From positions 91,574 to 155,573 of IMG/VR virus record IMGVR_UViG_3300032397_000003: 64,000 nucleotides of DNA, one strand, 5' to 3'. The notes under the pieces are model-generated. The model was not told the DNA's origin, ran no database searches, and was given only the letters and a program-made list of their open reading frames with translations. Numbering within the stretch: position 1 is the stretch's first letter; each line of letters begins with the position of its first letter. Position numbers and translations under genes: made by a program. Source of the stretch: a virus. Shown here one piece after another: positions 3,529-63,973 of the stretch.

Positions 3529-4707
3529 ATGAGTAATGATAATACCCTACTTTACAATAAGTATAGACCGAATAAACTTTCAGACGTAGTTGGACATAGT
3601 GCTACTGTAAAAGATTTACAGAAAAGATCAAAAGAAGGTAATCTTCCTAGAGTAATATTTTTATCAGGTATTACTGGAACAGGTAAAACAACTCTACAAA
3701 GAATTATTGCTAAAAATATTCTTTGTCTTAATAAAGATAAAGAAGGGAATAGCTGTAATGTATGTGAGATTTGTTCTTCTATTATAGAGGAGAAGATAAC
3801 AAATTATTATTTTGAGATTAACTGCTCTAATGTTAACATAGATGAGTCAAGACAGATAGCTGAGAATGCATCAGTTAAATCTTTTTCAAATGCTAAAGCA
3901 AAAGTATTCGTTCTCGATGAAGCACAGGAACTTAAAAAATCACAAGCTGCTATGAACAATCTTTTAAAACCAATAGAGAAAGATTATAAAAATGTTTATT
4001 TTATATTTGGTGCCATGGACGATAAATCTGTACCAAAGGCAATCGTTGGTAGGTGTACAACTTATAAACTCAAACCACATAATATGGAAGACATTGCTAC
4101 AAAACTCGCTGATATTTGTCAGAAGGAATCCGTTATATTAGATACAGAAGAAAAAGCTAATGTACTTCTTACTATATCTGAGAATAGTGGTGGAAGTTTA
4201 AGACAAGCAATTAGTTATTTAGAGAGGGTTATATATTCAGAACTATGGACAACTAAACAAGCAATAGAAGAACTTGGTATAGTATCTTCCAGCGAGCTTA
4301 ATCTAAAGATCAATGCTCTGTTTAAAGGTAAGCCAGAAGCATTTGATATTACGTATAATGAAGAACTCCTCACTTCAATAAGATATATGTTTAGTACTAT
4401 GTACAAGAAGTTATCTGGTATAGAAGTAGAAGAATGGCAAGTTAAAAAACTTATGGGAATAGACAAAACCATTACACTAGAACAAGTTGAATATGCTCTT
4501 GGCAAGATTTTTGAATTAAATAAGTTCCCCTATGTTAATCAAGAAATGATCGATTTCATTTTAGTTGATATTTTTAATTATAATAAGAGATATATAAATC
4601 AATTGGTTGAGATGAAAATAGATTCTTATAGAACTCAATCAACTACTCTAAACAAATCAACAGAGTCTAAACAAGCTGAACCAGTTAGAAGAAGGGGGCA
4701 AGCATAG
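3529..4707 (+). CDS. DNA polymerase III gamma/tau-like clamp loader subunit
   Basis: 392 residues, AAA+ ATPase. It begins YNKYRPNKLSDVVGH, the DnaX/RFC start. Walker A is GITGTGKTT (47-55). A zinc-binding set of Cys66, 76, 79 and 82 matches the DnaX Cys4 insertion. Walker B is VFVLDEAQ (126-133), a sensor region lies near 161-167 and an SRC-like GRC at 174-176. It probably loads the sliding clamp for phage replication. The tail after about 350 is short, without the bacterial tau domains. No clamp or polymerase gene lies in this window. Confidence 0.88.
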   Translation: MSNDNTLLYNKYRPNKLSDVVGHSATVKDLQKRSKEGNLPRVIFLSGITGTGKTTLQRIIAKNILCLNKDKEGNSCNVCEICSSIIEEKITNYYFEINCSNVNIDESRQIAENASVKSFSNAKAKVFVLDEAQELKKSQAAMNNLLKPIEKDYKNVYFIFGAMDDKSVPKAIVGRCTTYKLKPHNMEDIATKLADICQKESVILDTEEKANVLLTISENSGGSLRQAISYLERVIYSELWTTKQAIEELGIVSSSELNLKINALFKGKPEAFDITYNEELLTSIRYMFSTMYKKLSGIEVEEWQVKKLMGIDKTITLEQVEYALGKIFELNKFPYVNQEMIDFILVDIFNYNKRYINQLVEMKIDSYRTQSTTLNKSTESKQAEPVRRRGQA

Positions 4708-4710
4708 TTT

Positions 4711-5106
4711 ATGCCTACTAAAATTATTTTATGTGCCGATTGTGGATGTGAAGTAATAGTTACATATAAAGATGGTAGAACAAAAAGATGTAAAGAGCAC
4801 CAAAAGATTCGTGCTAAGAAATTACAAGAAGAGTGGCAAGATAAACATGGACATGAATATATAGGTCATATACCTATACCAGTTCAAGAGGGTAGAAAGA
4901 GGACTTATTTAAGAAGAGCAGTTGATTCAGTACAAGATATCGAATATTGTAAAGCTAATTGGAATTCTGTTAAGGGATGTTTGAATTGCATAATAAAAGA
5001 TTGTTTACAACCAACAGACAATGATTCATTTTTACCTTGGGAGGATGAAGGATTTTATGAAGATGATATTAAAATAGACATTGAATTAAAAAGGAGTATA
5101 GGATAA
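4711..5106 (+). CDS. Putative zinc-finger protein
   Basis: 131 residues. The N-terminus has CADCGCE then RCKEH, a likely zinc-binding knuckle. A second Cys cluster (GCLNCIIKDC) lies near residues 90-98. The C-terminus is acidic. It follows the clamp loader by 3 nt and the nearest purine-rich SD (GGGGG) is rather far upstream. Function unknown; nucleic-acid binding is a guess from the Cys pattern. Confidence 0.65.
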   Translation: MPTKIILCADCGCEVIVTYKDGRTKRCKEHQKIRAKKLQEEWQDKHGHEYIGHIPIPVQEGRKRTYLRRAVDSVQDIEYCKANWNSVKGCLNCIIKDCLQPTDNDSFLPWEDEGFYEDDIKIDIELKRSIG

Positions 5107-5138
5107 TTTAATTTTTAGATTATTTTCTATATATTATA
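5106..5138 (+). promoter_or_regulatory. Class B (middle-type) promoter, copy 3
   Basis: TTTAA at 5107-5111, a 13-nt gap, TTCTATATATTATA at 5125-5138, then SD AGAGG and ATG at 5154. Confidence 0.7.
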
Positions 5139-5153
5139 GATAAGAGGTAATAA

Positions 5154-5393
5154 ATGTATACAGTAGATATTGAGAATTGTAGATTTTTAGAATTCAGGAA
5201 TGAAGACAGTTCTTATGTTCAATCGTTCTATTTGTCTGATGTTAGTGCTTTATTCATTTATAATCAAAAAGTTAAAGAAGATACATTCTCTTTCGATCTA
5301 ATTATAAGAGGGGTCTCTTATTCTATATCAGATATTACCTCTAGTAAAGAACAAGCGAAAGAAATTTTAAGTACTTGGAAGTTAAGCAGGTGA
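5154..5393 (+). CDS. Small hypothetical protein
   Basis: 79 residues, mixed alpha/beta character, no motif recognised. First gene after class B promoter copy 3. Its stop overlaps the GTG start of the next gene (GTGA). Confidence 0.65.
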   Translation: MYTVDIENCRFLEFRNEDSSYVQSFYLSDVSALFIYNQKVKEDTFSFDLIIRGVSYSISDITSSKEQAKEILSTWKLSR

Positions 5394-5632
5394 AAGATGT
5401 ATATTACAACTTTATAAATGAACATAACTTTAATGATAATTTAAGTGATATACCCGAGTTAAGCTATTCACAAAAGATTATCATATTAAAAGAATTACAA
5501 ATAGATTTTTCTAATGATACTGTATGTTTAGCACTAAATGATTATCATCAAAGATACATTAAAAAGAATAGAGTAAGAATCAAGTTGCTCTATAATACAT
5601 TAAAGGGGATTTGTCAAAGGTTGTTAAAATGA
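5390..5632 (+). CDS. Small hypothetical protein (GTG start)
   Basis: 80 residues from GTG at 5390, which overlaps the preceding TGA and has a GGAAG site upstream. A longer version from TTG at 5375 is possible but has no binding site. Lys/Tyr-rich and helical; unknown function. Confidence 0.6.
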   Translation: MKDVYYNFINEHNFNDNLSDIPELSYSQKIIILKELQIDFSNDTVCLALNDYHQRYIKKNRVRIKLLYNTLKGICQRLLK

Positions 5633-6174
5633 ATTTTTATTCATCCGATCAACATTTTGGTCATGGAAACATAATTAAATATGAGAATCGTCCATTTAAA
5701 TCGGTGGAAGAAATGGATGAATATATGATCTATAAACATAATTTAAAAGTATCTCCAAAGGATAATGTCTATTTTTTAGGGGACTGTATTTTCAGTAACG
5801 ATGAAAATAAAACTGTAAAACTATTACAAAGACTTAATGGTAACAAACATTTAATATACGGGAATCATGATAAAATAGTTAGAACAAGTCAGCTCGTGCA
5901 ACAACAATTTAATTTTTGTAAAAACTATTATGTTAACTATGAAAATATAAATGGAAACAAAACACCAATTATTCTTTTTCATTATCCAATTCAAGTATGG
6001 GATAGAAAACATCATGGTAGTATTCATCTATATGGACATATTCATTCTAATAAAGATAATCACCATCCAATGGTCAATGATTTAGTTAATGCTTATAATG
6101 TTGGAGTGGATGTAAGAAACTTTGAACCTGTTACTATTGAGGAGATATTAAAAAATGCTAGAACGATTAAGTAA
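5629..6174 (+). CDS. Metallophosphoesterase (calcineurin-like)
   Basis: 181 residues from ATG at 5629, overlapping the previous stop. All metal-binding blocks are visible: SDQHFGHGN (D7, H9), LGDCIF (51-), YGNHD (77-81), FHYP, and YGHIHSNK. These small phage enzymes act as phosphodiesterases or phosphatases; substrate unknown. It differs from its neighbour at 6301 in lacking the long C-terminal part. An upstream TTG at 5611 would add six residues but has no binding site. Confidence 0.85.
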   Translation: MNFYSSDQHFGHGNIIKYENRPFKSVEEMDEYMIYKHNLKVSPKDNVYFLGDCIFSNDENKTVKLLQRLNGNKHLIYGNHDKIVRTSQLVQQQFNFCKNYYVNYENINGNKTPIILFHYPIQVWDRKHHGSIHLYGHIHSNKDNHHPMVNDLVNAYNVGVDVRNFEPVTIEEILKNARTIK

Positions 6175-13254: not shown

Positions 13255-15099
13255 TTATGATATATAAGACAAATCAGTGTTGATAAAGTCTTGGTCTATG
13301 TCAGTTATTTGGTAGAACCAGGGCAATCTTATACTATTCCGCTGTCCAGGTGTTGTATTACCATCTTCCATCTTGTAACTGAGATATAAAACATATCCAT
13401 CAGCATCAGCAGTACCTGGATTCTGTATTCCATAAATAGCATGAGTTACATCAGCTACTATTTCAACAATTAAAAACGAATACTGATTAGTACTGTAATT
13501 AACAAATCCACCTGAAACTGTGTAACCGTTCATCCCCGATATAACCACACCTGTAGTAGATGCTATTTGTAAAGGGGCTTGCCATACATCAGCTATTTTT
13601 CTTTTAATCCATATTTCAAAACTATTTAATAGCAACCAATTTTGCTTATCTAGATCACTGGTTTGGGGTGGTATAAAACTAGAGAGTAATCTTACATTAC
13701 TCATTGTAGGATTTATATCTTTTTCTAAGTAATAAATCTCTGAACTATGGTACACTATATCAGTTATAGCATCTATAACTCTATAAAAATTAGATTCATA
13801 AATATTTTGCTGAAAGTCTGCATTAAGAATATCATATTGGGTATTAAGAGCATCCTTAATATCTAAGTCCACAACTGAAAATGTTTTATTAGCTGAAATT
13901 TTTGCAGTTACATCAAATCTCGCATAAACTTTTTGAAGTGTTTCAAAAGATACAATCTCTGTTAAACATTTTTTTGGTAAAATATAATCAGTTTCTAAAC
14001 TTGTTTTTTGAGTTGCAGTTAAATCTTCTCCAGTATTAGATACTGCAGTTACATAAACTAAATTTTGATCTGAGACATTAGTTGAACCCCCTAGACTTTC
14101 TATAGTCCATACTTTAGATTTATTTACGTAAGGAGCTGCATCAATTGCTGCCATCCAATTTTCTACTGAAGATAGTATACCACCTATTTGAAATAGATTA
14201 GGTGCATTATTTCTTATTGATTCAATATCTTCAATCTCTGTTCCTCCAACTATACCATCCGCATGAGTACAATATAAAGTAGCTACTGTATTATCTTCAT
14301 CTGTTAAAGCTGTTTTAATTACTATTATAGCATCACTTGATGTAATATCACCAAGACTTCCCTTTGTATCAGCATATTTAATAAGTATCCTTTCTCCATT
14401 AGAAAGTTTTTTAGAGTTTATACCATCACCAAATATAATCTTTATATAATCGTATGCAGGAGAGTTTTCTATTTGACAGTAATAATCAGTGGTATTATTT
14501 ATAAGATAAAGATTAGAGGTAATATTCACATCGTATAAGAATCCATTTGCTGAGTCTACTACCCATATTTGCAATTCATCATTATCAGTAGAATCAGAAT
14601 ATAAAGATATAGTTTCATTTACTATTCCAGTTGCTATATAAAGAAATTCTTTCGGAGTACCTTCTTTAACAGCAACATCTATATCTCCTACTGTACCTGT
14701 ATAATAAAATACATTATCAGTAGCATACACACTAAGAGTATTATCTACATCTATAAATGTAGCCCAACGGGGTATTCTAATTTCCTTTCCTGCATAGGTG
14801 TAGGCGGGGTTGAAGGTAGAATCAGCACTTATCTGTAAAGTACCAATAGCCCCTGTTTTTCTATAAGGAATATATCCAAGCCATTTAGCAAGTTTGACAA
14901 GTGAGTCTCTTTTTTCTGCTGTAATCCATTTAGCTTCTCTATATAAGAATTCAGCGAGATAAACTAATTTTTCTCCTGTATAAGCAAGCATATCAACAAT
15001 TCGTTGATATACTCCATAATATAATATTTTATTCCAATCAGATAAAAGCGAAAGTCTTGATTGTATTTCTGTTACGAGTCCGTTATACGTATAAATCAT
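13255..15099 (-). CDS. Baseplate wedge protein (gp6 / baseplate J-like)
   Basis: 614 residues. It has the baseplate-J layout: an N-terminal helical region with LAKWLGYIPYRKTGAIG (68-84), then a beta domain with IPRWATF, FGDGINSKKLSNGERI, and a central GIVGGTEIEDIESIRNNAPNLF, a close match to the J/gp47 'GGxexEsxexxRxxxp' signature. It forms the iris-like inner ring of the baseplate that controls sheath contraction. Neighbouring gp25 and spike genes support this. Confidence 0.85.
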   Translation of the reverse strand: MIYTYNGLVTEIQSRLSLLSDWNKILYYGVYQRIVDMLAYTGEKLVYLAEFLYREAKWITAEKRDSLVKLAKWLGYIPYRKTGAIGTLQISADSTFNPAYTYAGKEIRIPRWATFIDVDNTLSVYATDNVFYYTGTVGDIDVAVKEGTPKEFLYIATGIVNETISLYSDSTDNDELQIWVVDSANGFLYDVNITSNLYLINNTTDYYCQIENSPAYDYIKIIFGDGINSKKLSNGERILIKYADTKGSLGDITSSDAIIVIKTALTDEDNTVATLYCTHADGIVGGTEIEDIESIRNNAPNLFQIGGILSSVENWMAAIDAAPYVNKSKVWTIESLGGSTNVSDQNLVYVTAVSNTGEDLTATQKTSLETDYILPKKCLTEIVSFETLQKVYARFDVTAKISANKTFSVVDLDIKDALNTQYDILNADFQQNIYESNFYRVIDAITDIVYHSSEIYYLEKDINPTMSNVRLLSSFIPPQTSDLDKQNWLLLNSFEIWIKRKIADVWQAPLQIASTTGVVISGMNGYTVSGGFVNYSTNQYSFLIVEIVADVTHAIYGIQNPGTADADGYVLYLSYKMEDGNTTPGQRNSIRLPWFYQITDIDQDFINTDLSYIS

Positions 15100-16730: not shown

Positions 16731-17471
16731 TTATCTCATTCTAGGATTTGTTTTTACTGGGGCTGCAGGTGCTTCTGGTCCATAATAATTACCATTAGTG
16801 TCAAATAATCTCCCCATTTTAAAGAATTCTATGAAAGCAGGAACAAGACTTTGTATTTGTACATTAGCACTAGCCCACAAAGGGTAACCGTTCTCAGTGA
16901 CATGTTTAGAGTAGGTTGGAGAAACAGAAAAAACAAATGCTGCTGGGAGATATATAACTCCAGGGATAACAACTGAAAAAATAGAATCCTGTTGTTGATC
17001 TATAATTTTTTGCATTTCTTTTTTTTGTTGGTCTGTAATTTCTTCTCCACCTTTATCTTTTATGTCTTTTATTTCTTGATCTATTGATCTAACATTTTTT
17101 GCATTTAACCCAGGAACCAAAACTTGTTTTTTATCCCCTGTTCTAAGTATATGAGAACCTATAAGTAAGGTCATAGGGTCAAGAACATCAGTTAAAGGAT
17201 CAGTTTTTGTATAAAAAAACATATCAACTGTAATTTTTACAGGATTTGTTTTTGTCCATCTAGGAGCATCAAGTATTGATCTTAATCCTAATCCTGTCGA
17301 TCCAACTGTTCCACCCGAACTACTTAACATATTACCAACATCTACTAGAGAAGATATAGTGGGGCATAGATCACCAAAAGTACTAAACTCAGTAGCTGTT
17401 TCTATTTGAAAATCTTCTGTTATTGGAAGATCAATTTGACCACTTGCAAATTGCATTATTATTCTATTCAT
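16731..17471 (-). CDS. Tail tube-hub adaptor / baseplate protein
   Basis: 246 residues between the tape measure and spike genes. The pattern VKITVDMFFYTKTDP ... LVPG ... PGVIYLPAAFVFSVSPTYSKHVTENGYPLWASANV fits tail-completion proteins that cap the tube below the tape measure, where residues after 'G.P' are shared. A Lys/Glu/Gln-rich insertion (about 125-160) is probably a coiled coil. Its start overlaps the tape measure stop. Confidence 0.5.
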   Translation of the reverse strand: MNRIIMQFASGQIDLPITEDFQIETATEFSTFGDLCPTISSLVDVGNMLSSSGGTVGSTGLGLRSILDAPRWTKTNPVKITVDMFFYTKTDPLTDVLDPMTLLIGSHILRTGDKKQVLVPGLNAKNVRSIDQEIKDIKDKGGEEITDQQKKEMQKIIDQQQDSIFSVVIPGVIYLPAAFVFSVSPTYSKHVTENGYPLWASANVQIQSLVPAFIEFFKMGRLFDTNGNYYGPEAPAAPVKTNPRMR

Positions 17472-19030
17472 TTAGACCCCAGTACAAATGTTCCTTTTCT
17501 ATTCATATCAAAATCCATAGCTTTTGCTCTTCCTGCATCTCTTCCAGACTCATATTTATCTAATTTTTCTAATAAGCCAGCTTGTTTCGCTTCGGCATAT
17601 CTTTGAGTGGATACTCCCATTGTTTGTGCAGCCTCTCTTAATTGCTTAACATCTTCATAATCTGCAGCATTTAGTTGTTTTTTCAATTGCTCATCCGTAG
17701 CTGAAGAGGATGCCGCTTGAACTATGTAAGACTGAGATGCTGTCTTTCCCGCTTCTTGAATTTTTTCGGTATTTCTCATATAATCTACAGCGCCATAATC
17801 CCAAATAGCACCTAACCAATTGAGTAAATCCCCTATAACTTTTTGCACTGTATTTATAGCTGATGTTATACCACTAGTAATTTTATTAAAGAGATTACCA
17901 AAAAAATCTAATACAGGTCCAAGTTTTTTTAATACTGGTGCAGCCATTTTAGATAATTTAGAAAATAAATTTTTTATAGGTTTTATAAATATAGAATCAA
18001 ATAATGTACTTAGTATTGTATATCCTGATTTGAAAACTCTAATAGCTCCCATAACAAAATTGTATATTCCCGTTATAAGTTTAATAGGGAGTAATATAAT
18101 AAATTTCCATATTTTAAATTGAAGTATAAGAAATTTACCTAAAGCTTTAAATAAAAAACTACCTATTTTTTTAATGATAGGTAAAGCGGGAACTATGTAA
18201 TCAGTAAAAAATACTTTTAATGTATTAAAAAGATCAGATATAAGAGGTTCTATTTCTTTCCAGTTATCATAAATTAAATAGGCTATAAGAGCTGCTGCTG
18301 CAACTGCTGCAACTAGAGGCCAACTTAATACCGCCATTGCAGCACCTAAAGAACTTATTATTGGACCTAGAAATCCAACTGCCCAAACTATAGCAAGAAG
18401 TAGTGGAAGAAATTGAGCTATGAAATCAGTTATCTTTCCCCATATAGGGTCTTTTAACCCAAGCATATCAAGTATAGCTCTAAATATTTGTTTTAATACT
18501 TTTGGTATTACATTCCATAAAAGATTCCAGAACATTTTTAAAAGTGTTGGTAAGAATTTTATAAGACTTACAATAGCACTACCAATAATGCCTAAAATCC
18601 AAGGTAAGAACTTTTGTATGATTCCCATTCTAAGTAGAACAAGAAATACAATAAGTTCAGTTATAAAACTAACTGAAGCAAGTCCTTTTAAAAATCCTAA
18701 AGTCTTTTGAAAGAAATTTGATTTAATTACTTTTTGCCATTTTTCAGTAATCCAATGGCTTTTCTTTTTATCCCCATCTGAAGGTTCATTTTTTTTATCT
18801 TGTTTATTCCCATCTATTGATGCGCCATATACTTTTTCTACTATTTCTATAAGTCTAGTAAATCTAGTGATAAGCATATTATGAAGTCCTTTAATGGCTA
18901 AAGTAAACATACCATTATTACCAAGAAATTTCATAAGAAAAGGAGTATATATTTTATCAACTTTAGTTTGTTCTTTTTTTAATTCTTTACTAAGAGGTTT
19001 ATTAAAATCTGGTAAAACCATTCCATCCAT
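17468..19030 (-). CDS. Tape measure protein
   Basis: 520 residues, very hydrophobic between about 110 and 400 with many amphipathic or transmembrane-like helices, including YLIYDNWKEIEPLISDLF, a phrase typical of tape measure proteins. It follows the chaperone genes and precedes the hub adaptor, the standard position. At about 1.5 angstrom per residue it predicts a fairly short tail of about 75-80 nm. Confidence 0.8.
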   Translation of the reverse strand: MDGMVLPDFNKPLSKELKKEQTKVDKIYTPFLMKFLGNNGMFTLAIKGLHNMLITRFTRLIEIVEKVYGASIDGNKQDKKNEPSDGDKKKSHWITEKWQKVIKSNFFQKTLGFLKGLASVSFITELIVFLVLLRMGIIQKFLPWILGIIGSAIVSLIKFLPTLLKMFWNLLWNVIPKVLKQIFRAILDMLGLKDPIWGKITDFIAQFLPLLLAIVWAVGFLGPIISSLGAAMAVLSWPLVAAVAAAALIAYLIYDNWKEIEPLISDLFNTLKVFFTDYIVPALPIIKKIGSFLFKALGKFLILQFKIWKFIILLPIKLITGIYNFVMGAIRVFKSGYTILSTLFDSIFIKPIKNLFSKLSKMAAPVLKKLGPVLDFFGNLFNKITSGITSAINTVQKVIGDLLNWLGAIWDYGAVDYMRNTEKIQEAGKTASQSYIVQAASSSATDEQLKKQLNAADYEDVKQLREAAQTMGVSTQRYAEAKQAGLLEKLDKYESGRDAGRAKAMDFDMNRKGTFVLGSK

Positions 19031-21693: not shown

Positions 21694-23844
21694 TTAAGCC
21701 GTTAAACTTTCAATTGAAATATTTTGCCCTATTCTAGTAAGTCTTAAAATAACCCACTGAGAATTTGGGGTGATCTGGCAATAAAAATCTAGGACGAACT
21801 GACGATTATTTAAAACAGTATTGGTATTATTTGTAGCGTCGCAAATAATTTTGTAGGCTCTAATCCATCCATTTGCCTTGATAGGTTCTACAAATTCTTC
21901 TGTTTGAACCTTAGCCATCATTCTATGAAGAGGATCGTTGATTTTAAATTCTTGTTTTCTAAGTATTTGCTTTGTAATAACTTCTATCATATACTTATAA
22001 ACTCTTCTTGTACCAACAAAACTTGTATCACTATTTGTTACTTGTAGAGTTTGATCTCCATAACACATAAGACCATAAGCCTGATCTAGTATAATAGGGT
22101 TGATTTGATTATTGTAGAATGAATCAAGCTCTGCTTGGGTATAATCAATTTCAACTTCTTTAACTACCCAATCATTTAACTGACCACCATGATTACTTTC
22201 ATCTAATCCTGCTGGAGATGCAGCATCATAAACATCTGACATATAAGCAAACTTTTTACCAACTGAACCAACATTTGAAATCCATGCAAAACTATTATTA
22301 TAATCATCTTGAATTTTTGCCCAGTTGTGATAAAGTCCTACATCATCAGTATCAAGAGCTAAACTTGATCTAAACGCTAATGCTTGAGAAGCACTTGCTC
22401 CAAGAGGAACACATGTAATACCTTGACCCCATACTTGATAAGTTTGAATAAGGGTATTTATAGTATTTGCATGAGTACCATAACAATCCATAAATATTTT
22501 AGCTTTATACTTATTAGCATATTGGAATTGATTCCATGCCGTAGTAAAATCACCTGTTACAGGATCATTACCTCTAGAACCACCTGTAAATGCTATTACT
22601 GCTGAATTAACTGTATAAGGAGTTGCTGTATAAGCAGGATTTAATTTAAAAGTTACATAAGGATTTTCATCAAATACATCTACATAATAAAGAGACTTTC
22701 CAAACGCATCTTTCTCATTTATAAGTGAATAATTATATGCTTGTATAAGTGAATTACCCGTTGATCCCACTTTGTAAAGAGTAAGAGTAAATTTACTTCC
22801 TGATACATAAGCAACTGAAGCTGCTAGATCATCTGTATAAGGAGAAGTGGTAAAGAAACTATGGGATACGGTGGTTGAAGTATCTGCTGTATAACGATAA
22901 TCAAAAGTTACTGCTCGTCCATATTGAGGAATAGATAAAGTTGGATTTGTTCCTGTACTTGCAAGACTTGTACCACCAGAACTAAATACTGCTGTTAATG
23001 CAGAATCTCCTGTAGCTGGATCACTTACTGTTATATTACCAGATGTACTTCCATTTCTTCCTACTATGTTTATAAAGTTCCCCGAAACTGAAGCTGCAGT
23101 ATAACCAAATGCTACATTTATAGCTGATATAACTGCTGTTCTTAAAGTTGTTGCAGATTGCCCTAGATTAAGAGTTTGTATTGAACCATCTATAATAATT
23201 TTAATATACTTATCTGTTGATCCAACACTTAAATTATAACTTGATGCTCCATTTACATCTGTAGTTACTGTAGCATAACTTCCAGCTACTCCTGCAAAAG
23301 TAAGAGAGAATACCCCTGTTGCTAAAGTTACTGAACCTGCTGTAATATCTGCTCCAGACAATGCACCACCTGTAGCCATAGTAACTGTTTTTTCAATTCC
23401 ATTAACTTTTACTTTAAAGTTAGGTTCATCTGATACTGGAATATTTGTTATTGTTCCTGAGAATGTAGCGGTTACTCCATTTCCTGTTCCTACTGCATGA
23501 GTAGCTCCTTTAGCAGTTGATCCATAGCTAAAAGTAGAAGGGGTTCTTCCTACTCCAAAAGCAGTTACTGTTGCTTTCCCTACATCAATTCCACCATAGG
23601 CTGAATTTGTTCCTATTGCAGAAGCTACCCATAAAGGTGCTCTTCTTGTAAATGCAATAGCTTCAAAAACACCTGGATAGGATGCTGAAGGTGTTCCAAG
23701 CTCTCTTAAACAATCCTCTTCAGATTGAAGATACATTGGAGTTGATTTTCCTTTAGCCGAATTTAAAACCATAGCCCCTGTCTCATCAACAAGAGTATTT
23801 ATAAATCCACTCAAATCGCGCTCTAAAACTTGCGTTCTACTCAT
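21694..23844 (-). CDS. Tail sheath protein
   Basis: 716 residues, first gene of the tail operon. The N-terminus has the sheath handle pattern (LVDETGAMVLNSAKGKSTPMY, then FEAIAFTRRAPLWVASAIG). A long Ser/Thr/Gly-rich beta insertion (about 95-310) precedes the conserved C-terminal domain (KKFAYMSDVYDAASPAG, then YGLMCYGDQTL, KYMIEVITKQILRKQEF and a final VILRLTRIGQNISIESL). Larger than T4 gp18 (659) because of the outward-facing insertion. It contracts during infection. Confidence 0.88.
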   Translation of the reverse strand: MSRTQVLERDLSGFINTLVDETGAMVLNSAKGKSTPMYLQSEEDCLRELGTPSASYPGVFEAIAFTRRAPLWVASAIGTNSAYGGIDVGKATVTAFGVGRTPSTFSYGSTAKGATHAVGTGNGVTATFSGTITNIPVSDEPNFKVKVNGIEKTVTMATGGALSGADITAGSVTLATGVFSLTFAGVAGSYATVTTDVNGASSYNLSVGSTDKYIKIIIDGSIQTLNLGQSATTLRTAVISAINVAFGYTAASVSGNFINIVGRNGSTSGNITVSDPATGDSALTAVFSSGGTSLASTGTNPTLSIPQYGRAVTFDYRYTADTSTTVSHSFFTTSPYTDDLAASVAYVSGSKFTLTLYKVGSTGNSLIQAYNYSLINEKDAFGKSLYYVDVFDENPYVTFKLNPAYTATPYTVNSAVIAFTGGSRGNDPVTGDFTTAWNQFQYANKYKAKIFMDCYGTHANTINTLIQTYQVWGQGITCVPLGASASQALAFRSSLALDTDDVGLYHNWAKIQDDYNNSFAWISNVGSVGKKFAYMSDVYDAASPAGLDESNHGGQLNDWVVKEVEIDYTQAELDSFYNNQINPIILDQAYGLMCYGDQTLQVTNSDTSFVGTRRVYKYMIEVITKQILRKQEFKINDPLHRMMAKVQTEEFVEPIKANGWIRAYKIICDATNNTNTVLNNRQFVLDFYCQITPNSQWVILRLTRIGQNISIESLTA

Positions 23845-45230: not shown

Positions 45231-46481
45231 TTACTTTTTATCCTTTGTTGGTATGTATTGATAGGGTACTCCACCAAATCCAAATTCTACTTTACCTTTT
45301 ATATTAGACATTTTTCTTATATCGTCTTCTGAATATATTTTAGCCATAGAATACTCGACTGTTAAATCACCCCCTATAAATTTAGGTAATCCCTCTAATG
45401 ATTTTAATTGTGGATTTCTATCACATATAAAATCATCCCCTACAGTATCAGGACTATTTTTTAAAGATGTTAGATTATTCATATGACAAGCAAAGTGCCC
45501 ATCAACAGTTCCAAATTTAAAAGGAATTTCTTTTAAGTGTTTATTCCCTATATCAACATATCCCTCAAAATCAACAGTTAAATCCATATTTATAATATAA
45601 TCTTTATTCTCTAAACCTAAATTTTTAATATTATATTCTATCTTTTGTTTCGGATCATGGATATTTATAGTTTTCTTAGCTGGAACATTATCTACTCTTG
45701 TTATAACTTCAAATGCTCTTGTATTAAAGAATACAGCTTGCATAGGTTCTGATGGATGTATATATCCTTTACCTGATTTATCTGCAAATCCACTATAACC
45801 TAAATCTTTTGATAGAATAAGATTCCATTTAGTTGATGATTGCTTTGAATCTGCTGATAAAAAATCAGACAACAATCTTGTTATATTCCACATAGAAACT
45901 GATGGATTTTTTTCTTTAGCTTCTTTTAAAGAGTAATCTATAAACTCTAACCATAGCTCTTTTTCATTATCAAAAATTTGTACATCAAAATACTTTCTTA
46001 TATGTCTAATAGCTTTTTCGGTCTTATATTCTTTAAACATTATTTCTTTATATTTCTTTTCTAATATCTTTATATCCATATCATACTTATCACTACCATA
46101 ATCCTTATACATATCTTCTATAAAATGTGATTTATCTTTTACTCTAATAAATGAAATGTATTTAGCACTACCGGCAAAGGGAGCATAAGAACCAACTGAC
46201 TTAGTATATATATTTTTACTTTCTGAACTTTCAAATCCTTTTGATAAGTTCATAAAGGGTGTGTAATTTTTAACAAATTCTCTAAGTGGGTATGTGTAAA
46301 TCCCTACAGGCGTATTGAACTTACTTTTAGGATTTATACCTATCTTATCTATTTCTGTAAATGATATATAAACATCTTTATCATCTTTATATTTATCTAC
46401 ATAATCCCAAGCACTTATATGAGGATTCTGCTCAGGATTTCTTCTTGCTTCATTGAAATTAAATGGTTTATATCTTTTCAT
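45231..46481 (-). CDS. Large protein with capsid-targeting-like start and LRR-like repeats
   Basis: 416 residues. It starts MKRYKPFNFNE|A, the signature shared with other putative head-packaged proteins. A central block (YISFTEIDKIGINPKSKFNTPVG, PFAGSAKYISFI) is recognised only as a motif of phage proteins. At about 325-385 there are short leucine-rich-like repeats (HFACHMNNLTSLKNSP, FICDRNPQLKSLEGLP). Such a protein could be an internal, injected effector. Stop and start touch both neighbours. Confidence 0.65.
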   Translation of the reverse strand: MKRYKPFNFNEARRNPEQNPHISAWDYVDKYKDDKDVYISFTEIDKIGINPKSKFNTPVGIYTYPLREFVKNYTPFMNLSKGFESSESKNIYTKSVGSYAPFAGSAKYISFIRVKDKSHFIEDMYKDYGSDKYDMDIKILEKKYKEIMFKEYKTEKAIRHIRKYFDVQIFDNEKELWLEFIDYSLKEAKEKNPSVSMWNITRLLSDFLSADSKQSSTKWNLILSKDLGYSGFADKSGKGYIHPSEPMQAVFFNTRAFEVITRVDNVPAKKTINIHDPKQKIEYNIKNLGLENKDYIINMDLTVDFEGYVDIGNKHLKEIPFKFGTVDGHFACHMNNLTSLKNSPDTVGDDFICDRNPQLKSLEGLPKFIGGDLTVEYSMAKIYSEDDIRKMSNIKGKVEFGFGGVPYQYIPTKDKK

Positions 46482-46712: not shown

Positions 46713-47000
46713 TTAATTCCTCTTTAGATATTGCTCTACTTCATTTATAAAATCCCTTCTTTTTATATTCCCACAATTTCCTTTGTCCCAGTCATCTATA
46801 ATTTTAAGAACAGATGTGGCAGTACCATAAGTTCCAAATTTAGTATCCGATATCTTTTTCATTATACTATCATGATCTTTTTGATTCTTAACATCATCCC
46901 ATTGTTGAAATAATTTATTAACAATAGCACCATTATTTATGTCTGGTGATACTATAGTTTGATTGCTTTTTTCTTTAAAATAACTTTCATATCTTTTCAT
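46713..47000 (-). CDS. Small protein with capsid-targeting-like start
   Basis: 95 residues beginning MKRYESYFKE|K, then helical, charged sequence. No family recognised. Placed among head genes; perhaps an internal head protein. Confidence 0.6.
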   Translation of the reverse strand: MKRYESYFKEKSNQTIVSPDINNGAIVNKLFQQWDDVKNQKDHDSIMKKISDTKFGTYGTATSVLKIIDDWDKGNCGNIKRRDFINEVEQYLKRN

Positions 47001-58333: not shown

Positions 58334-59794
58334 TTAAAGTGAACCTAGCTGCATAAGTCTGCAAAACTTGCCATTAATGACACGAGAATCTTCGATGACG
58401 CAAGAATTTCCCTCAGTAACAAAGTTAGGGTATCTTAAGCTGGCATCTAATTCTGTCAACGTTCCGAAAAGGATACTCACATCCATGGCCTCCTGTGGAT
58501 TCTTGTATACAAGTAACATCTCGTTATTTGCTACAAGTGATGCATCTGCTGGACAAGTATAAACATCCATATCTGACAATGTACCAGACTGGTATACACC
58601 ATTCTTAACATCTCCAGTTACATCTTTCCAAAGGTCATGATTTTTCATATACTCAGTTGCTTTAGAACCTGCAACGATATCAGTAATACCACCCCTTTTG
58701 ATATCATCATAAATTACTGCTCCAACTCTTCCAATTTCAGTAAGAAGTCTTTGTGCATGTGATTTATAACTGATCTCACCAGCAGCCGCAAAGTCTGTAT
58801 CAAATGAAGCTACTGCATTTCCAAGTGCTACTCTTCTTGCTTGTGCAATTGCTCTATAGTCTTTTGCTCTTGCATGCTCTTGTCCAACTGCTTGTGCCAT
58901 ATAATCTTTAGCATCACCAAGACCAGTTGTCTCAAACATGATTTGAGTCATATCAGAAATTCTATATCCAAGAGGCATAGGACGTGCATTGAATCTAGTT
59001 TTCACAAGTTCAAGAGCCATAGTACCATAGTTAGAATAGTTTGTTGCATCTTCTGAGTTCCAGTTATATACACAAACGATAGCTGCTCCTACTGCTGGAC
59101 CACGACCTGCTAAGAAGTTAAGAGTAACAACACCAGTTGAATATACAACAGTGTTTGTAGCTGCAGGATCAAGTAAAGGACCAACAAGTGTTCCAGAACC
59201 ATTATCTACTGCTATTTGTGCACCAGCAACTGTAATTACAGTCTTAAAAGGAATAAGTGGAAGATATGCCATTGCTGCAGAAACGAATGTTATTGTACCT
59301 GCACCAGCACCTGTTCCAACTGCTCCATAATATTGCTCGCCAGAGTAATAAGGAGCTATACTTTCGTATGATCTTGCAGCTGCAACTCCACCTCTAAGAG
59401 ACTGCTCATAAGTCGCTTGGATGTAGAATAATGCATCATCAGTAGAAGTTAGAGGATACTCAGTAAAAATATCACCTCTTTTTGAATTAGCTGCTCCAAG
59501 GAAAACTGCTTTAAGCATATGTTCTGGTTTTACAGATGTTCCAAAAGTAGTAGAATAAAGATTTTCTCTCATGATCTGTTTTAGAACTTTTTCTTGGTTC
59601 TCAAGCATAATTGCTGCTTTACGAATTTTAGCAGGATTAGCTTGATAAGCTTTAAGCATTTCTGGTCCTACTAGGTCAGTTTTTGACCATTTGGATACAC
59701 ATGCTTCTCCCATTTTTGATTTAGAACTCCACTCTCTTTGAACGATTTCGTTCATTTGAGCTTCACTCAATTTTTCTTGTCTTCCGTGTTTCAT
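58334..59794 (-). CDS. Major capsid protein (gp23-like)
   Basis: 486 residues. It lies beside the protease-scaffold gene, and the pattern GDIFTEYPLTSTDDALFYIQATYEQ, ARPMPLGYRISDMTQIMFETT, YKSHAQRLLTEIGRVGAVIYDDIKRGG and EYMKNHDLWKDV fits T4 gp23-type HK97-fold capsid proteins. The N-terminus contains KLSE|AQ (residues 9-13), a possible prohead protease site of the L-x-E type. An Ala/Gly-rich insertion (about 155-245) may form a surface domain. Codons are G+C-rich, as for a highly expressed gene. Confidence 0.85.
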   Translation of the reverse strand: MKHGRQEKLSEAQMNEIVQREWSSKSKMGEACVSKWSKTDLVGPEMLKAYQANPAKIRKAAIMLENQEKVLKQIMRENLYSTTFGTSVKPEHMLKAVFLGAANSKRGDIFTEYPLTSTDDALFYIQATYEQSLRGGVAAARSYESIAPYYSGEQYYGAVGTGAGAGTITFVSAAMAYLPLIPFKTVITVAGAQIAVDNGSGTLVGPLLDPAATNTVVYSTGVVTLNFLAGRGPAVGAAIVCVYNWNSEDATNYSNYGTMALELVKTRFNARPMPLGYRISDMTQIMFETTGLGDAKDYMAQAVGQEHARAKDYRAIAQARRVALGNAVASFDTDFAAAGEISYKSHAQRLLTEIGRVGAVIYDDIKRGGITDIVAGSKATEYMKNHDLWKDVTGDVKNGVYQSGTLSDMDVYTCPADASLVANNEMLLVYKNPQEAMDVSILFGTLTELDASLRYPNFVTEGNSCVIEDSRVINGKFCRLMQLGSL

Positions 59795-60128: not shown

Positions 60129-60821
60129 ATGGAAATATGTAATAAATGTAAAAAAGAACTAGATGAATCTAATTTTTATAAAGATAAATCTAGATCAAGA
60201 GGGTACAACTATACTTGTAAAATATGTATGAAAGATAAATATAAAATTGATGCTGCATCACTATCTATAAGTGATATTGAAAAAAGAAAACAAAAAGATA
60301 AAGAAAAATATCATCAAAATTTAGATAAATCTAGGGAGGATAATAGAAAAAGAAAAATAAAGTATAACATAAAACACACAGAAAAAATCAAAGAGGAAAA
60401 GGATAAAAAGAAAAAAATAAAAGAAGAAAAAAGAAAAACTAAAGAAGAAAAAAGAGAAGGAAATTCAAAATATAGACGAAATAGATTAAAAAATGATCCT
60501 TTATATAAATTGATTAATACTATTAGAAGTAGAATTACTATGGCAATTAAATGTCAATATGGGGAAAAACAAAATAAAACAATAGAACTTTTAGGTTGTA
60601 CAGTAGATGAATGTAGAAACCATCTTGAAAAACAATTTACAGAAGGGATGACTTGGGAAAATCATAGTCGATATGGTTGGCATATAAATCATATTATTCC
60701 TTGTAATGCATTTGATTTAACATGCCCATTGCAACAAAAGATATGTTTTCATTATACAAACTTACAACCTCTTTGGTGGAAGGATAATATATCTAAAGGA
60801 AAGAAGATAAAAAAGTCCTAA
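60129..60821 (+). CDS. HNH endonuclease, free-standing homing type
   Basis: 230 residues. N-terminal zinc ribbon (ICNKCKKEL … YTCKICM), a Lys/Glu-rich helical linker (80-115), and a C-terminal HNH-like core: GWHINHIIPCNAFDL and CFHYTNLQPLWWKDNISKGK, a form seen in homing endonucleases. It lies in opposite orientation between capsid and protease-scaffold genes with its own class B promoter and terminator, as expected for a self-spreading insertion next to conserved head genes. Confidence 0.85.
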   Translation: MEICNKCKKELDESNFYKDKSRSRGYNYTCKICMKDKYKIDAASLSISDIEKRKQKDKEKYHQNLDKSREDNRKRKIKYNIKHTEKIKEEKDKKKKIKEEKRKTKEEKREGNSKYRRNRLKNDPLYKLINTIRSRITMAIKCQYGEKQNKTIELLGCTVDECRNHLEKQFTEGMTWENHSRYGWHINHIIPCNAFDLTCPLQQKICFHYTNLQPLWWKDNISKGKKIKKS

Positions 60822-60866: not shown

Positions 60867-62240
60867 TTATATCTTAAATTTATAGTTTGTGAATTGTGAA
60901 GATTGTTCTTTTCTAGATTCTTTCAACTTGTGAATATCATTACCAAATTTAGTTTCAAACAAGGTAACTTTTTTAATTGCTTCTGCAATAGAACCTGATT
61001 TAAGAACCGCTTCTTTGATATCTCTGATAGATGGTTTAGCTTCTACTATTGCTTTATAATAAGCTACAACTTCTTTTACAGGGGCTTTAGATTCTTTTAC
61101 AGATTTTTTCTTAGCATCTACTTTAGCTTGAAGTCTTTTTGCTTCTTGTCTTTTCTTACGTCTAATAGCCTCTTTCTTTGCTGCTCTTACTGCTGCCATT
61201 TTATCATCAGCATTATCTTCAGAATCATCTTCTTTTTCATCATCTTCTTTATCGTCTTCTTCAGCTTCGTCTAGTTCTTCATCATCTTCGTCTTCATCAT
61301 CAGACTCGTCCATTTTTTCTTCTTCGTCATCTTCATCTTCGTCATCTGATTCTTCCATTTCTTCTTCGTCTTCGTCACTATCTTCAGAATCATCTTCCTC
61401 AGCTTCTTTTCTTTTTTTAGATTTAGATTTTTTAGATTCTTTTTTAGCTTCTTCTTTGTCATCTTCATCGTCTTTTTCTTCGTCTTCTTTTCCATCTTCA
61501 TCTGCTTCGAAGATATACTCATCATTTTCTACATCGTCATCAAAAAGACCACCATCTATATCAGCACCAGAAAGATCGTCTTCATCATCCATAATTTCAT
61601 CATCAAAATCATAATCAAAGTCTTCTTTAAGTATTTTTTCAAGCTCTTTAATATGTTTTTCGGCTACTTTAAGTGCCTTAGATTTTGTAGATGATTTTAA
61701 TTTCATTTTCTCCCTTTCTTCTTTAAATTTTGCAATGTCCTTTTCTCTCAACTCAGTGTCTTCTTCATACACTTTAAGATCAGAATCTCTCTTTTGAACT
61801 TCCTCTACAAGAACTTTAATATCAGCTTCCATAAGTTCCCTATCTTCTGAGAATTGTTTAAGATCAGCTTCCATCATTTTTACAGATTTAACAATATCTT
61901 TGTCATTAGCTTTTTCAACAATTTTAGATGCTTTATCAAGATTCTCTTTAAGTACTTTAATAGTCTCACAAGATGCTTCATATTTTTTAGATAGACTTTC
62001 AAGAGTTTCTTTTGATTCTTTTAATTCTTGTTTAGCATTATTTTTCTGCTCTTCAAGTGTATTTTGAATCTGTACAATCGTTGCTTCGACTTGAGCTTTT
62101 TGTTCTGCCATCTCAGGAATGATTGTTTCGGAAACTTCTTTAAGCCCTTTTATAGCTTCAACGCAGTTTTCATTAGCAATCGCTTCCTTGATGGTAGCTT
62201 TAATTTGATTCTTAATAGACAATTCCAAATATTTATCCAT
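60867..62240 (-). CDS. Nested scaffold, internal start within protease-scaffold gene
   Basis: In-frame ATG at 62240 (residue 227, MDKYLEL) is preceded on the minus strand by GGTAGAGGTAAAAGGAAAA, a good binding site inside the coding sequence. It would give a 457-residue scaffold without the protease, similar in principle to the lambda C/Nu3 pair. That internal start falls exactly where the coiled coil begins. Predicted, not shown. Confidence 0.5.
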   Translation of the reverse strand: MDKYLELSIKNQIKATIKEAIANENCVEAIKGLKEVSETIIPEMAEQKAQVEATIVQIQNTLEEQKNNAKQELKESKETLESLSKKYEASCETIKVLKENLDKASKIVEKANDKDIVKSVKMMEADLKQFSEDRELMEADIKVLVEEVQKRDSDLKVYEEDTELREKDIAKFKEEREKMKLKSSTKSKALKVAEKHIKELEKILKEDFDYDFDDEIMDDEDDLSGADIDGGLFDDDVENDEYIFEADEDGKEDEEKDDEDDKEEAKKESKKSKSKKRKEAEEDDSEDSDEDEEEMEESDDEDEDDEEEKMDESDDEDEDDEELDEAEEDDKEDDEKEDDSEDNADDKMAAVRAAKKEAIRRKKRQEAKRLQAKVDAKKKSVKESKAPVKEVVAYYKAIVEAKPSIRDIKEAVLKSGSIAEAIKKVTLFETKFGNDIHKLKESRKEQSSQFTNYKFKI

Positions 62241-62918
62241 TTTTCCTTTTACCTCTACCATTTTAATTTTTTCTTCTACTTTATTAGTAATAATACTTTC
62301 TGAAATTTTATTTTCTTTTTGTACTATTGACTTTTCTTCTAAGTTTTCTTGAGTAGCAAATACTCCTTGAGAAGGTTTCATTACCCAGTCGGTTTGAGAA
62401 TATTCATAACTAGATGGATTAACCTCTTTACCTGCTAAAGGACCATCCTCGTTTAGCTCCCCGAAGCCTACGGTTGAGAAACCTGTTTTTCCACCTGCTT
62501 TAATCTTCTCTAATAAAAGATTCCCTGCTGCCCCTATACAATATAAATCAGCAGTAGATACTTCCTCTCCTATCTGAAAATTATGCCATACTCCTACTTG
62601 ATCGAGCACATCTCCGTCATCATCGGCATGGTTGGCCAACGAATCACTCCCTTCAAACATTCCTGATTTATGTACAGCTTCCCATAGTTCTTTGGAATAT
62701 ACTCTACCGTTAGCATTTTCGGTATAACGAGTAATAGGAACATTTTTAAGTATCCCTCTTGCTTCAAATTGTTTTCCTGATTTAGCTTCAGTAAACTTAT
62801 TATCCTTTGATGTAAATACAATAACATCTTCTGCTTTAGGAGAATAGGATACGCTCTCTATTAAAAGTTGTTTCCCTTTTGCTTTAGCTTGTTCTTGTAA
62901 TGTTTTATACTTGTTCAT
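60867..62918 (-). CDS. Prohead protease-scaffold fusion (gp21 + gp22 type)
   Basis: 683 residues. The N-terminal 200 residues match the T4 gp21-type serine protease fold: VPITRYTENANGRVYSKELW, NHADDDGDVLDQVGVWHN with probable catalytic H97, and GGKTGFSTVGFGEL with S148. The rest is scaffold: long coiled coil (about 225-435), a highly acidic Asp/Glu tract (about 440-570), then a basic segment (RRKKRQEAKRLQAK) and a C-terminal part needed for shell binding. MNKYKTLQE at the start fits the shared signature. The protein would assemble the prohead and then digest itself. Confidence 0.8.
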   Translation of the reverse strand: MNKYKTLQEQAKAKGKQLLIESVSYSPKAEDVIVFTSKDNKFTEAKSGKQFEARGILKNVPITRYTENANGRVYSKELWEAVHKSGMFEGSDSLANHADDDGDVLDQVGVWHNFQIGEEVSTADLYCIGAAGNLLLEKIKAGGKTGFSTVGFGELNEDGPLAGKEVNPSSYEYSQTDWVMKPSQGVFATQENLEEKSIVQKENKISESIITNKVEEKIKMVEVKGKMDKYLELSIKNQIKATIKEAIANENCVEAIKGLKEVSETIIPEMAEQKAQVEATIVQIQNTLEEQKNNAKQELKESKETLESLSKKYEASCETIKVLKENLDKASKIVEKANDKDIVKSVKMMEADLKQFSEDRELMEADIKVLVEEVQKRDSDLKVYEEDTELREKDIAKFKEEREKMKLKSSTKSKALKVAEKHIKELEKILKEDFDYDFDDEIMDDEDDLSGADIDGGLFDDDVENDEYIFEADEDGKEDEEKDDEDDKEEAKKESKKSKSKKRKEAEEDDSEDSDEDEEEMEESDDEDEDDEEEKMDESDDEDEDDEELDEAEEDDKEDDEKEDDSEDNADDKMAAVRAAKKEAIRRKKRQEAKRLQAKVDAKKKSVKESKAPVKEVVAYYKAIVEAKPSIRDIKEAVLKSGSIAEAIKKVTLFETKFGNDIHKLKESRKEQSSQFTNYKFKI

Positions 62919-62927
62919 ATATTACCT

Positions 62928-63134
62928 TTAATTACCAATTTTTCCATCTTGTATTCGGCTAAGAGCTATACCATAAATATCTCCATTACCGAAGTCTACA
63001 TTAACCATATCTTTCATAACTTTTATTACTTTACCTTTTTTCTTATCAAGTAATGAGCCTTTGAAATCTCCTATAAGAGTATCACCAACTTTTATATCGT
63101 CTGCTTCTTCAAACTTTCTTTTATATCTTTTCAT
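62928..63134 (-). CDS. Small protein with capsid-targeting-like start
   Basis: 68 residues: MKRYKRKFEE|A, then IKVGDTLIGDF, KGKVIKVMKDMVNVDFGNGD, a small beta-barrel-like pattern (SH3-like). Possibly packaged in the head. Overlaps the next gene by 4 bp. Confidence 0.6.
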   Translation of the reverse strand: MKRYKRKFEEADDIKVGDTLIGDFKGSLLDKKKGKVIKVMKDMVNVDFGNGDIYGIALSRIQDGKIGN

Positions 63135-63403
63135 AATCCCTCTGTATCCTGTCCATAGTTTATTAGTTCATCCCCGATACTTGTGAATAAGTCCCCAATC
63201 GCTTTAAAGGCTTTTCGAGACCTTTTATCCTTTGAATTGTGCAAGCTTGTAAAAATATCAATCATACTCTTACGAGACTCCTCGTTGCCATAATCATTAT
63301 CCCTAAGTACTCCTAATAATTCGGTTACCTTGTCATCTAACCAATCAGGAGTAGTATCCTTATCATCTTCATCTTCACTGTAATATCTTATGTATCTATT
63401 CAT
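63131..63403 (-). CDS. Small acidic protein with similar start
   Basis: 90 residues: MNRYIRYYSE|D, acidic start, then helices (LDDKVTELLGVLRDNDYG, RKAFKAIGDLFTSIGDEL). No family recognised. Confidence 0.6.
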   Translation of the reverse strand: MNRYIRYYSEDEDDKDTTPDWLDDKVTELLGVLRDNDYGNEESRKSMIDIFTSLHNSKDKRSRKAFKAIGDLFTSIGDELINYGQDTEGL

Positions 63404-63412
63404 AATAAATAC

Positions 63413-63790
63413 CTATCTAAACGACCACTCTTTAGTTTCATAGTTATACAGTGATGTAAGTAATTCAGTACCATTTGAGCCCCCTGATTTATATTCAAAC
63501 CTAAAATCTAAAGTCATCCACCACGTAGGTTCCTTATCATTTATTGCAGAGTTAAAAGTCTTTAAAATAAAGCTGCTATAAATGTTTTTAAGTATACCAG
63601 TTAACTTAGTTAAATCCTTAGATTGCACGGATAAGTACTCTTTTCTAGAAGAAATTTTTGAAATAGATAGAGGTATACTCACACCTAATCTTTTTTTAAC
63701 TTCATTTTCTAAAGGTGTTAAATCTATCGTTGAAATTATTTGATCTAATAATTGATTATCTTCTTTAAACTTGCTCACATATCTTTTCAT
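63413..63790 (-). CDS. Protein with capsid-targeting-like start
   Basis: 125 residues: MKRYVSKFKE|D, then LEVEVKKRLGVSI-like helix and strands (TWWMTLDFRFEYKSG). Unknown. Upstream neighbour starts 7 nt away. Confidence 0.6.
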   Translation of the reverse strand: MKRYVSKFKEDNQLLDQIISTIDLTPLENEVKKRLGVSIPLSISKISSRKEYLSVQSKDLTKLTGILKNIYSSFILKTFNSAINDKEPTWWMTLDFRFEYKSGGSNGTELLTSLYNYETKEWSFR

Positions 63791-63796
63791 TTTTAT

Positions 63797-63973
63797 TTAC
63801 CTATTTCTTAAATTATTTATAACTTGTTTTATTTCTTCTTCTGTTAGAAATCTTTGCATAGATTCGTAAAGTCCATCAGAGAATACAGAAATATTCTTAG
63901 ATTCATTATAAAACTTAATAAATTCTTCAAATATTTTTAAAGTACCTTCTTCTAATCTTTTATATCTTTTCAT
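63797..63973 (-). CDS. Small protein with capsid-targeting-like start
   Basis: 58 residues: MKRYKRLEE|G, then a long helix (TLKIFEEFIKFYNES) and LTEEEIKQVINNLRNR. Same operon as the genes downstream. Upstream of it only a few codons of another gene are visible at the window edge. Confidence 0.55.
   Translation of the reverse strand: MKRYKRLEEGTLKIFEEFIKFYNESKNISVFSDGLYESMQRFLTEEEIKQVINNLRNR

Follow-up and report, generated by a model that had tools for sequence, protein, structure and literature searches.

A fused gp21-type protease-scaffold gene with a conserved candidate internal scaffold start in a contractile-tailed phage

In phage Lambda (C/Nu3), the scaffold is translated from an in-frame start with a Shine-Dalgarno (SD) sequence located inside the protease gene. 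The proteases of this type in Lambda (C) and Mu (I) belong to a peptidase family other than that of T4 gp21. Phage Mu gene I/Z and ORF 27 of the Mu-like phage PaMx73 have been described in similar terms, with a scaffold produced from an in-frame SD start inside the protease gene (PMC4378225). In the herpesvirus UL26/UL26.5 (UL80/UL80.5) arrangement, as outlined in PMC12474303, an N-terminal protease precedes a C-terminal scaffold with a cleavage site between the two domains, and a nested gene yields the scaffold alone in excess, the full-length product amounting to ~10% of the scaffold. The protease folds of T4 and herpesviruses have been linked (PMC5694885). According to the account of T4 given in PMC9026906, the scaffold gp22 outnumbers the protease gp21 by 576 to 72 (the two being products of separate genes), a second start in gene 21 (Met45) gives rise to a short protease and not to a scaffold, and cleavage is associated with an L/I-x-E motif, represented in T4 by LIE-9.

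The fused protease-scaffold gene and its neighborhood

The window analyzed here is a stretch of 64,000 nucleotides with which a virus record of 155,573 bases (IMGVR_UViG_3300032397_000003) ends, and its matches to a tail sheath (21694-23844), a tape measure protein (17468-19030) and a baseplate wedge protein (13255-15099) are those of a contractile-tailed phage. The protease-scaffold gene (60867-62918, minus strand, as are the features described below unless otherwise noted) is one uninterrupted frame of 683 codons with an ATG start, encoding a protein of 683 aa and 77.8 kDa, and is preceded by an SD-like AAAGGT (62924..62929; -3.9 kcal/mol). A sequencing error was ruled out as the cause of the fusion, since the frame is equally unbroken in six other contigs (L002, L007, L011, L008, L009 and L010), one of which is near-identical. 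Neither a second copy of the gene nor a T4-like split into separate protease and scaffold genes was found in the 155,573-base record.

Searches with the window protein returned no match in Pfam or PHROGs at E <= 0.1 and none by tblastn against 50,697 phage records, and the matches of a PDB sequence-profile search were confined to its acidic and helical parts. Genome contigs searched with a 7-sequence family alignment and with the capsid protein also yielded no relative. IMG/VR searches with the fusion or the capsid protein identified relatives, comprising the six related contigs and the more distant L005, L018 and L019. Together with the window, the six contigs define four divergent lineages (window/L002, L011/L007, L008/L009 and L010), with identities to the window across lineages of 48-64% at the protein level and 67-72% at the nucleotide level.

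Residues 1-195 (62334..62918) form a predicted gp21-type (Peptidase_S77-like) protease domain. An AlphaFold2 model of residues 1-213 (pLDDT 79.7) matches T4 gp21 (5jbl) with a Foldseek E-value of 1.2e-05 (probability 1.00) and a VIA Z-score of 13.1 (rmsd 3.4, 152 aligned residues), the next family in the fold comparison being the HCMV protease (VIA Z-score of 4.9). These comparisons support the modeled N-terminal domain as having the T4 gp21 protease fold. Three residues are invariant in 7/7 aligned sequences and are the putative catalytic residues of the gp21 family type: His97 (62628..62630), the putative nucleophile Ser148 (62475..62477) and the candidate third residue Asp177 (62388..62390). 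An H/S/D triad has been aligned to T4 gp21 in PMC5694885. The profile PF03420 (Peptidase_S77) is matched above its cut-off by the distant fused relatives L005, L018 and QdP_Psa3, but not by L010, L008 and L011. The L008 protein also matches positions 51-440 of phrog_207 (head maturation protease, 519 positions; E 3.6e-11), indicating that this profile spans both the protease and the scaffold parts; its family description does not mention a nested start. The initial annotation had proposed that a gp21-type protease is fused in a 683-residue protein to a scaffold, unlike in T4. Its assignment of the protease is backed by the fold and by the PF03420 and phrog_207 matches of the relatives, and the fusion is supported, the T4-type records examined having separate genes.

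Downstream of the protease, sequence and alignment delimit a charged scaffold part (residues 227-434; 61617..62240), coiled-coil-like as judged from the look of its sequence, followed by an acidic stretch with 63% Asp and Glu (residues 435-573; 61200..61616) and by a basic C-terminus (residues 574-683; 60870..61199; pI 10.2) that is conserved in the alignment and is a candidate capsid-binding end. Two L/I-x-E sequences conserved in 4/4 lineages stand out by their location: LIE21 (62856..62864), a candidate N-terminal autocleavage site, and I-x-E207 (62298..62306), which lies in the linker and is a candidate site for the separation of protease and scaffold. These Glu-rich proteins contain 24-27 L/I-x-E sites each, of which 12 are conserved, including those at residues 21, 207 and 245, so that the conservation of I-x-E207 carries little weight when taken alone.

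The next structural gene encodes the major capsid protein (58334..59794). It was identified by a profile-profile match (E 2.4e-25, 406 columns) to a set of seven phage proteins, five of which carry a capsid annotation, and by tblastn it matches the QdP_Psa3 major head protein (E 5e-4). Its predicted structure (pLDDT 40) was set aside, and the identification rests on the profile comparison. The protein presents an (L/I/M)GE-A sequence near residue 30, a candidate cleavage site only. An endonuclease VII-like ORF (60129-60821, plus strand; phrog_1035, E 3.9e-17) separates the two genes and is encoded on the strand opposite to theirs, whereas L008, L010 and L011 have just a short gap at this position, and a terminator-like hairpin of 16 pairs (60844-60809) is found directly past the protease-scaffold stop codon.

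Runs of small genes sit just upstream of the protease-scaffold gene. Their products share the N-terminal sequence M(K/N)RY, after which there is, in most cases, an aromatic residue and a Glu near position 10. In the window such genes map, all on the minus strand, to 45231-46481, 46713-47000, 62928-63134, 63131-63403, 63413-63790 and 63797-63973, and in the relatives to 3619-4862 (L010) and 3612-5643 (L011). These starts resemble the capsid-targeting sequences of T4, in which positions 4, 7, 8 and 10 matter (PMC9026906). A looser form of the motif occurs at the start of 12/89 window ORFs, compared to 12/334 internal Met residues, and is also carried by the internal scaffold start (MDKY).

An internal start at the domain border

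The initial annotation had pointed to an in-frame ATG at 62240, behind a binding-site-like sequence at the border of the two domains, as the start of a 457-residue product. The window confirms this description. The ATG (62238..62240) encodes Met227, is aligned with a Met in all seven aligned sequences and is preceded, with a 10-nt spacer, by the sequence AGAGGT (62251..62256), which pairs with the anti-SD at -7.1 kcal/mol, compared to -3.9 kcal/mol at the full-length start. The nested frame (60867..62240) comprises 457 codons plus the stop codon that it shares with the fusion, and would encode a scaffold of 457 aa and 52.8 kDa. For 87 predicted gene starts of the window the median SD score is -6.3 kcal/mol, compared to -0.9 kcal/mol for 338 internal ATGs, of which nine score as well as the ATG at 62240. 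The 10-nt spacer, found in both the window and L010, is at the long end. Within the window gene alone the signal is modest, with synonymous-codon shuffles reaching the observed SD score at p = 0.10.

Among the in-frame ATGs, Met227 ranks second of 13 in the window and is top-scoring in the genes of 3/4 lineages. Met220 (ATG 62261) was discarded as a start, having an SD score of only -1.0 kcal/mol and not being conserved. In the window, the in-frame Met405 scores -7.2 kcal/mol, and its Met counterparts in L011 and L008 reach -6.0 and -6.5 kcal/mol. It lies in the middle of the scaffold, is SD-like in 3/4 lineages and has no Met counterpart in L010. We rejected it as a further start and retain it as a caution, given that its score indicates that purine-rich Glu codons are able to mimic an SD sequence.

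The relatives, which the initial annotation had named as the check on its proposal, keep the internal site in 4/4 lineages. The sequence GAGGTAAAA is codon-identical and the ATG is retained in all of them, inside a linker that is variable in both length and sequence, with a gap of 3 or 6 nt between GAGGTAAAA and the Met. Silent sites have otherwise largely diverged, as revealed by the retention of the codon in only 8/42 invariant fourfold columns, and there are only three runs of at least three codon-identical columns, EVK among them. GAG accounts for 8-18% of the Glu codons in these genes, and among the 40 columns with an invariant Glu across the lineages, 26 are all GAA and a single one, the SD codon, is all GAG. 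Synonymous shuffles of the three other lineages yielded p = 0.023, 0.045 and 0.036, values that are not independent and not to be multiplied, since the four lineages are related. The RNA at the site is weakly structured, with 160/215, 164/195, 207/207 and 180/205 gene windows at least as stable. By these sequence comparisons, the internal-start signal becomes strong only when the relatives are added.

The SD-like run and the Met might be a coincidence, reflecting the coding of Glu, Val and Lys residues conserved as protein. The mimicry seen at Met405 in the same gene and the shuffle value of 0.10 in the window fit such an origin. Against it stand the single all-GAG column among the 40 invariant Glu columns, the shuffle values of the three further lineages (0.023-0.045) and the case of L010, where the residue context differs and GAGGTAAAA and the Met are nonetheless retained. 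We consider coincidence highly improbable on this evidence.

The herpesvirus scaffold is made from a separate mRNA. The scaffold of the window could likewise arise, as that of UL26.5, from its own mRNA, transcribed from a promoter within the coding sequence of the protease, the SD sequence then serving that transcript. The output would be the same, and overlapping genes are used by herpesviruses (PMC12474303). Nothing promoter-like was detected just upstream of 62240 on this strand, where the region has 10 sites compared to 10.8 expected, and the T4-late-type TATAAATA, a consensus that may not be that of this virus, occurs at chance frequency in the window, with no instance near 62240. An internal promoter appears very unlikely.

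The reading that we favor is that two in-frame starts on one mRNA would give rise to the fusion and to an excess of the 457-aa scaffold, both of which we infer from sequence with a probability of roughly 0.8.

Fused and split forms in other phages

The comparison was extended to 18 annotated phage records, chosen for diversity from several hundred matches and one further match (H1). A fusion is present in 10 of these records (QdP_Psa3, SP-15, LIS04, Ab1-TPeters, RHph_Y65, phiXF1, GXN1, IME392, EP_H11 and phiLo) and absent from the other eight (CPt10, immuto, PA5oct, PhiW-14, Vibrio 1.031.O, Vibrio 150E35-1, PAU and Va2). The predicted gp21-type protease-scaffold fusion is therefore not unique to this virus and has gone mostly unremarked in other phages.

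Border starts were scored with a rule set after part of the data had been seen, which calls for an ATG located 50-90 residues past the catalytic Ser with an SD score <= -5. Outside the clade of L018, and leaving out the near-duplicates L002, L007, L009 and EP_H11, a border start with SD is present in 10/14 distinct fusions, compared to 11/108 background windows. The site is absent under this rule in SP-15, LIS04 and GXN1 and weak (-3.9) in QdP_Psa3, and none of the three fusions from Gram-positive phages presents it. The L018 clade comprises 26 loci, from which L045 and L046 (the L018 gene), the duplicates L053, L062 and L064-L066, and the cut L069 and L070 were dropped. Here a border start with SD occurs in 5/18 fusions, compared to 5/160 background windows, and the clade was accordingly rejected as support for a general rule. 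As far as can be predicted from these genes, a nested start occurs commonly in fusions of this kind without being universal, and it is not conserved within the L018 clade. A large IMG/VR clade of fused proteins (L047-L068), in which a Met around residue 199 is retained and in most cases lacks an SD sequence, provides a useful contrast to the family of the window.

The absence of a border start in several fusions indicates that fused phages can live without one, and bears on whether the scaffold might arise solely through self-cleavage at I-x-E207, yielding one scaffold per protease and leaving the SD-like sequence unused. In line with such a route, I-x-E207 is retained in 4/4 lineages within a variable linker, and 13/18 fusions of the L018 clade and the three Gram-positive ones manage without a border SD. 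Cleavage alone leaves unexplained both why the SD codons are conserved at silent sites and why an invariant Met lies at SD distance from them, and it appeals to a motif that is common in Glu-rich proteins (24-27 sites per protein). We regard it as very unlikely to be the sole source of the scaffold.

In RHph_Y65, Ab1-TPeters, IME392 and EP_H11, the border ATG with its SD sequence is the best in-frame ATG, and the gene is not annotated as nested in any of these records. No relatives of IME392 were found in IMG/VR. In Vibrio 1.031.O and 150E35-1, the scaffold is encoded by a gene of its own that shares the frame of the protease and follows two stop codons and an AGGAG sequence. The gp21-type protease of Vibrio 1.031.O, 150E35-1 and Va2 forms the C-terminal portion of a protein of 472-484 aa whose N-terminal half is different (L038 1655-3073, L039 1643-3073 and L044 1583-3037, respectively), the scaffold being separate. 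By blastp, residues 207-443 of RHph_Y65, which begin exactly at its internal Met207, match residues 1-215 of the scaffold that Va2 encodes separately (E 1.7e-07), and residue 225 of Ab1-TPeters pairs with residue 5 of the scaffold of 1.031.O; in multiple alignments the Ab1-TPeters Met was not placed in the same column. These pairwise alignments suggest that the internal start of the fused gene matches the position of the separate scaffold start.

The same-frame Vibrio genes suggest that the T4 split could have arisen when a stop codon appeared immediately ahead of the nested start. A nested arrangement ancestral to the gp21-protease tailed phages and the herpesviruses, with the T4 split derived in this manner, is a speculative and rather doubtful extension of these observations. 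Since related phages include both fused and split forms, whether gp21 and gp22 underwent fusion or fission can be tested directly.

A two-start model and its relationship to known systems

Under the two-start model, ribosomes would initiate at two in-frame starts on the mRNA of the fused gene, the weaker site (62918) giving the full-length protease-scaffold and the stronger, conserved site (62240) giving the 457-aa scaffold alone. An excess of scaffold from Met227 is suggested by the strength of the SD sequence and its conservation. Since both products would share the scaffold domain, a minority of full-length molecules could enter the prohead core by co-assembling with the more abundant free scaffold, resulting in a low proportion of protease of the kind that T4 attains with separate genes and herpesviruses with UL26 and UL26.5. 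Subsequently, the protease would release itself at the candidate I-x-E207 site, digest the scaffold at sites of the L/I-x-E type, and trim the capsid protein. The sequence basis of this model comprises the fusion, the protease fold, the conserved internal SD and start, and the neighboring capsid gene; from it we infer the production of both products, their ratio, their co-assembly and the cleavages.

If the model holds, a lineage related to the herpesvirus capsid proteases would join the phages in which nested translation sets the ratio of protease to scaffold, its layout paralleling that of UL26/UL26.5, and the label "head maturation protease" on such genes would hide both a scaffold and a second product. 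Nested in-frame scaffold starts in Mu, Mu-like phages and Lambda, as well as the herpesvirus layout, are already known. Searches of the open-access literature turned up no description of a nested start in a fused protease-scaffold gene of the gp21 type, and within that literature the gp21-type protease is the new element.

Within phages, the closest counterparts by layout are RHph_Y65, Ab1-TPeters, IME392 and EP_H11, in which a fused gene with a border ATG and SD also precedes the capsid gene, although they are distant from the window in sequence (profile-profile E 1.6e-09). With T4 genes 21 and 22 the locus shares the predicted protease fold, the L/I-x-E-type sites and the position before the capsid gene, whereas in T4 the two genes are separate. 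As in Mu I/Z, PaMx73 and Lambda C/Nu3, an in-frame start with SD lies within the protease gene and the stop codon is shared, features known here from sequence; a point of difference is the predicted protease fold, for which T4 gp21 is the best match, in a contractile-tailed phage. The locus also resembles herpesvirus UL26/UL26.5 at the sequence level, with a protease upstream of a scaffold, a nested scaffold start and a related protease fold (VIA Z-score of 4.9 to the HCMV protease). I-x-E207, conserved in 4/4 lineages, is a candidate for an inter-domain cleavage site, although its L/I-x-E motif is common. The herpesviruses differ in being viruses of eukaryotes, whereas here a single conserved SD sequence of bacterial type lies within one frame.
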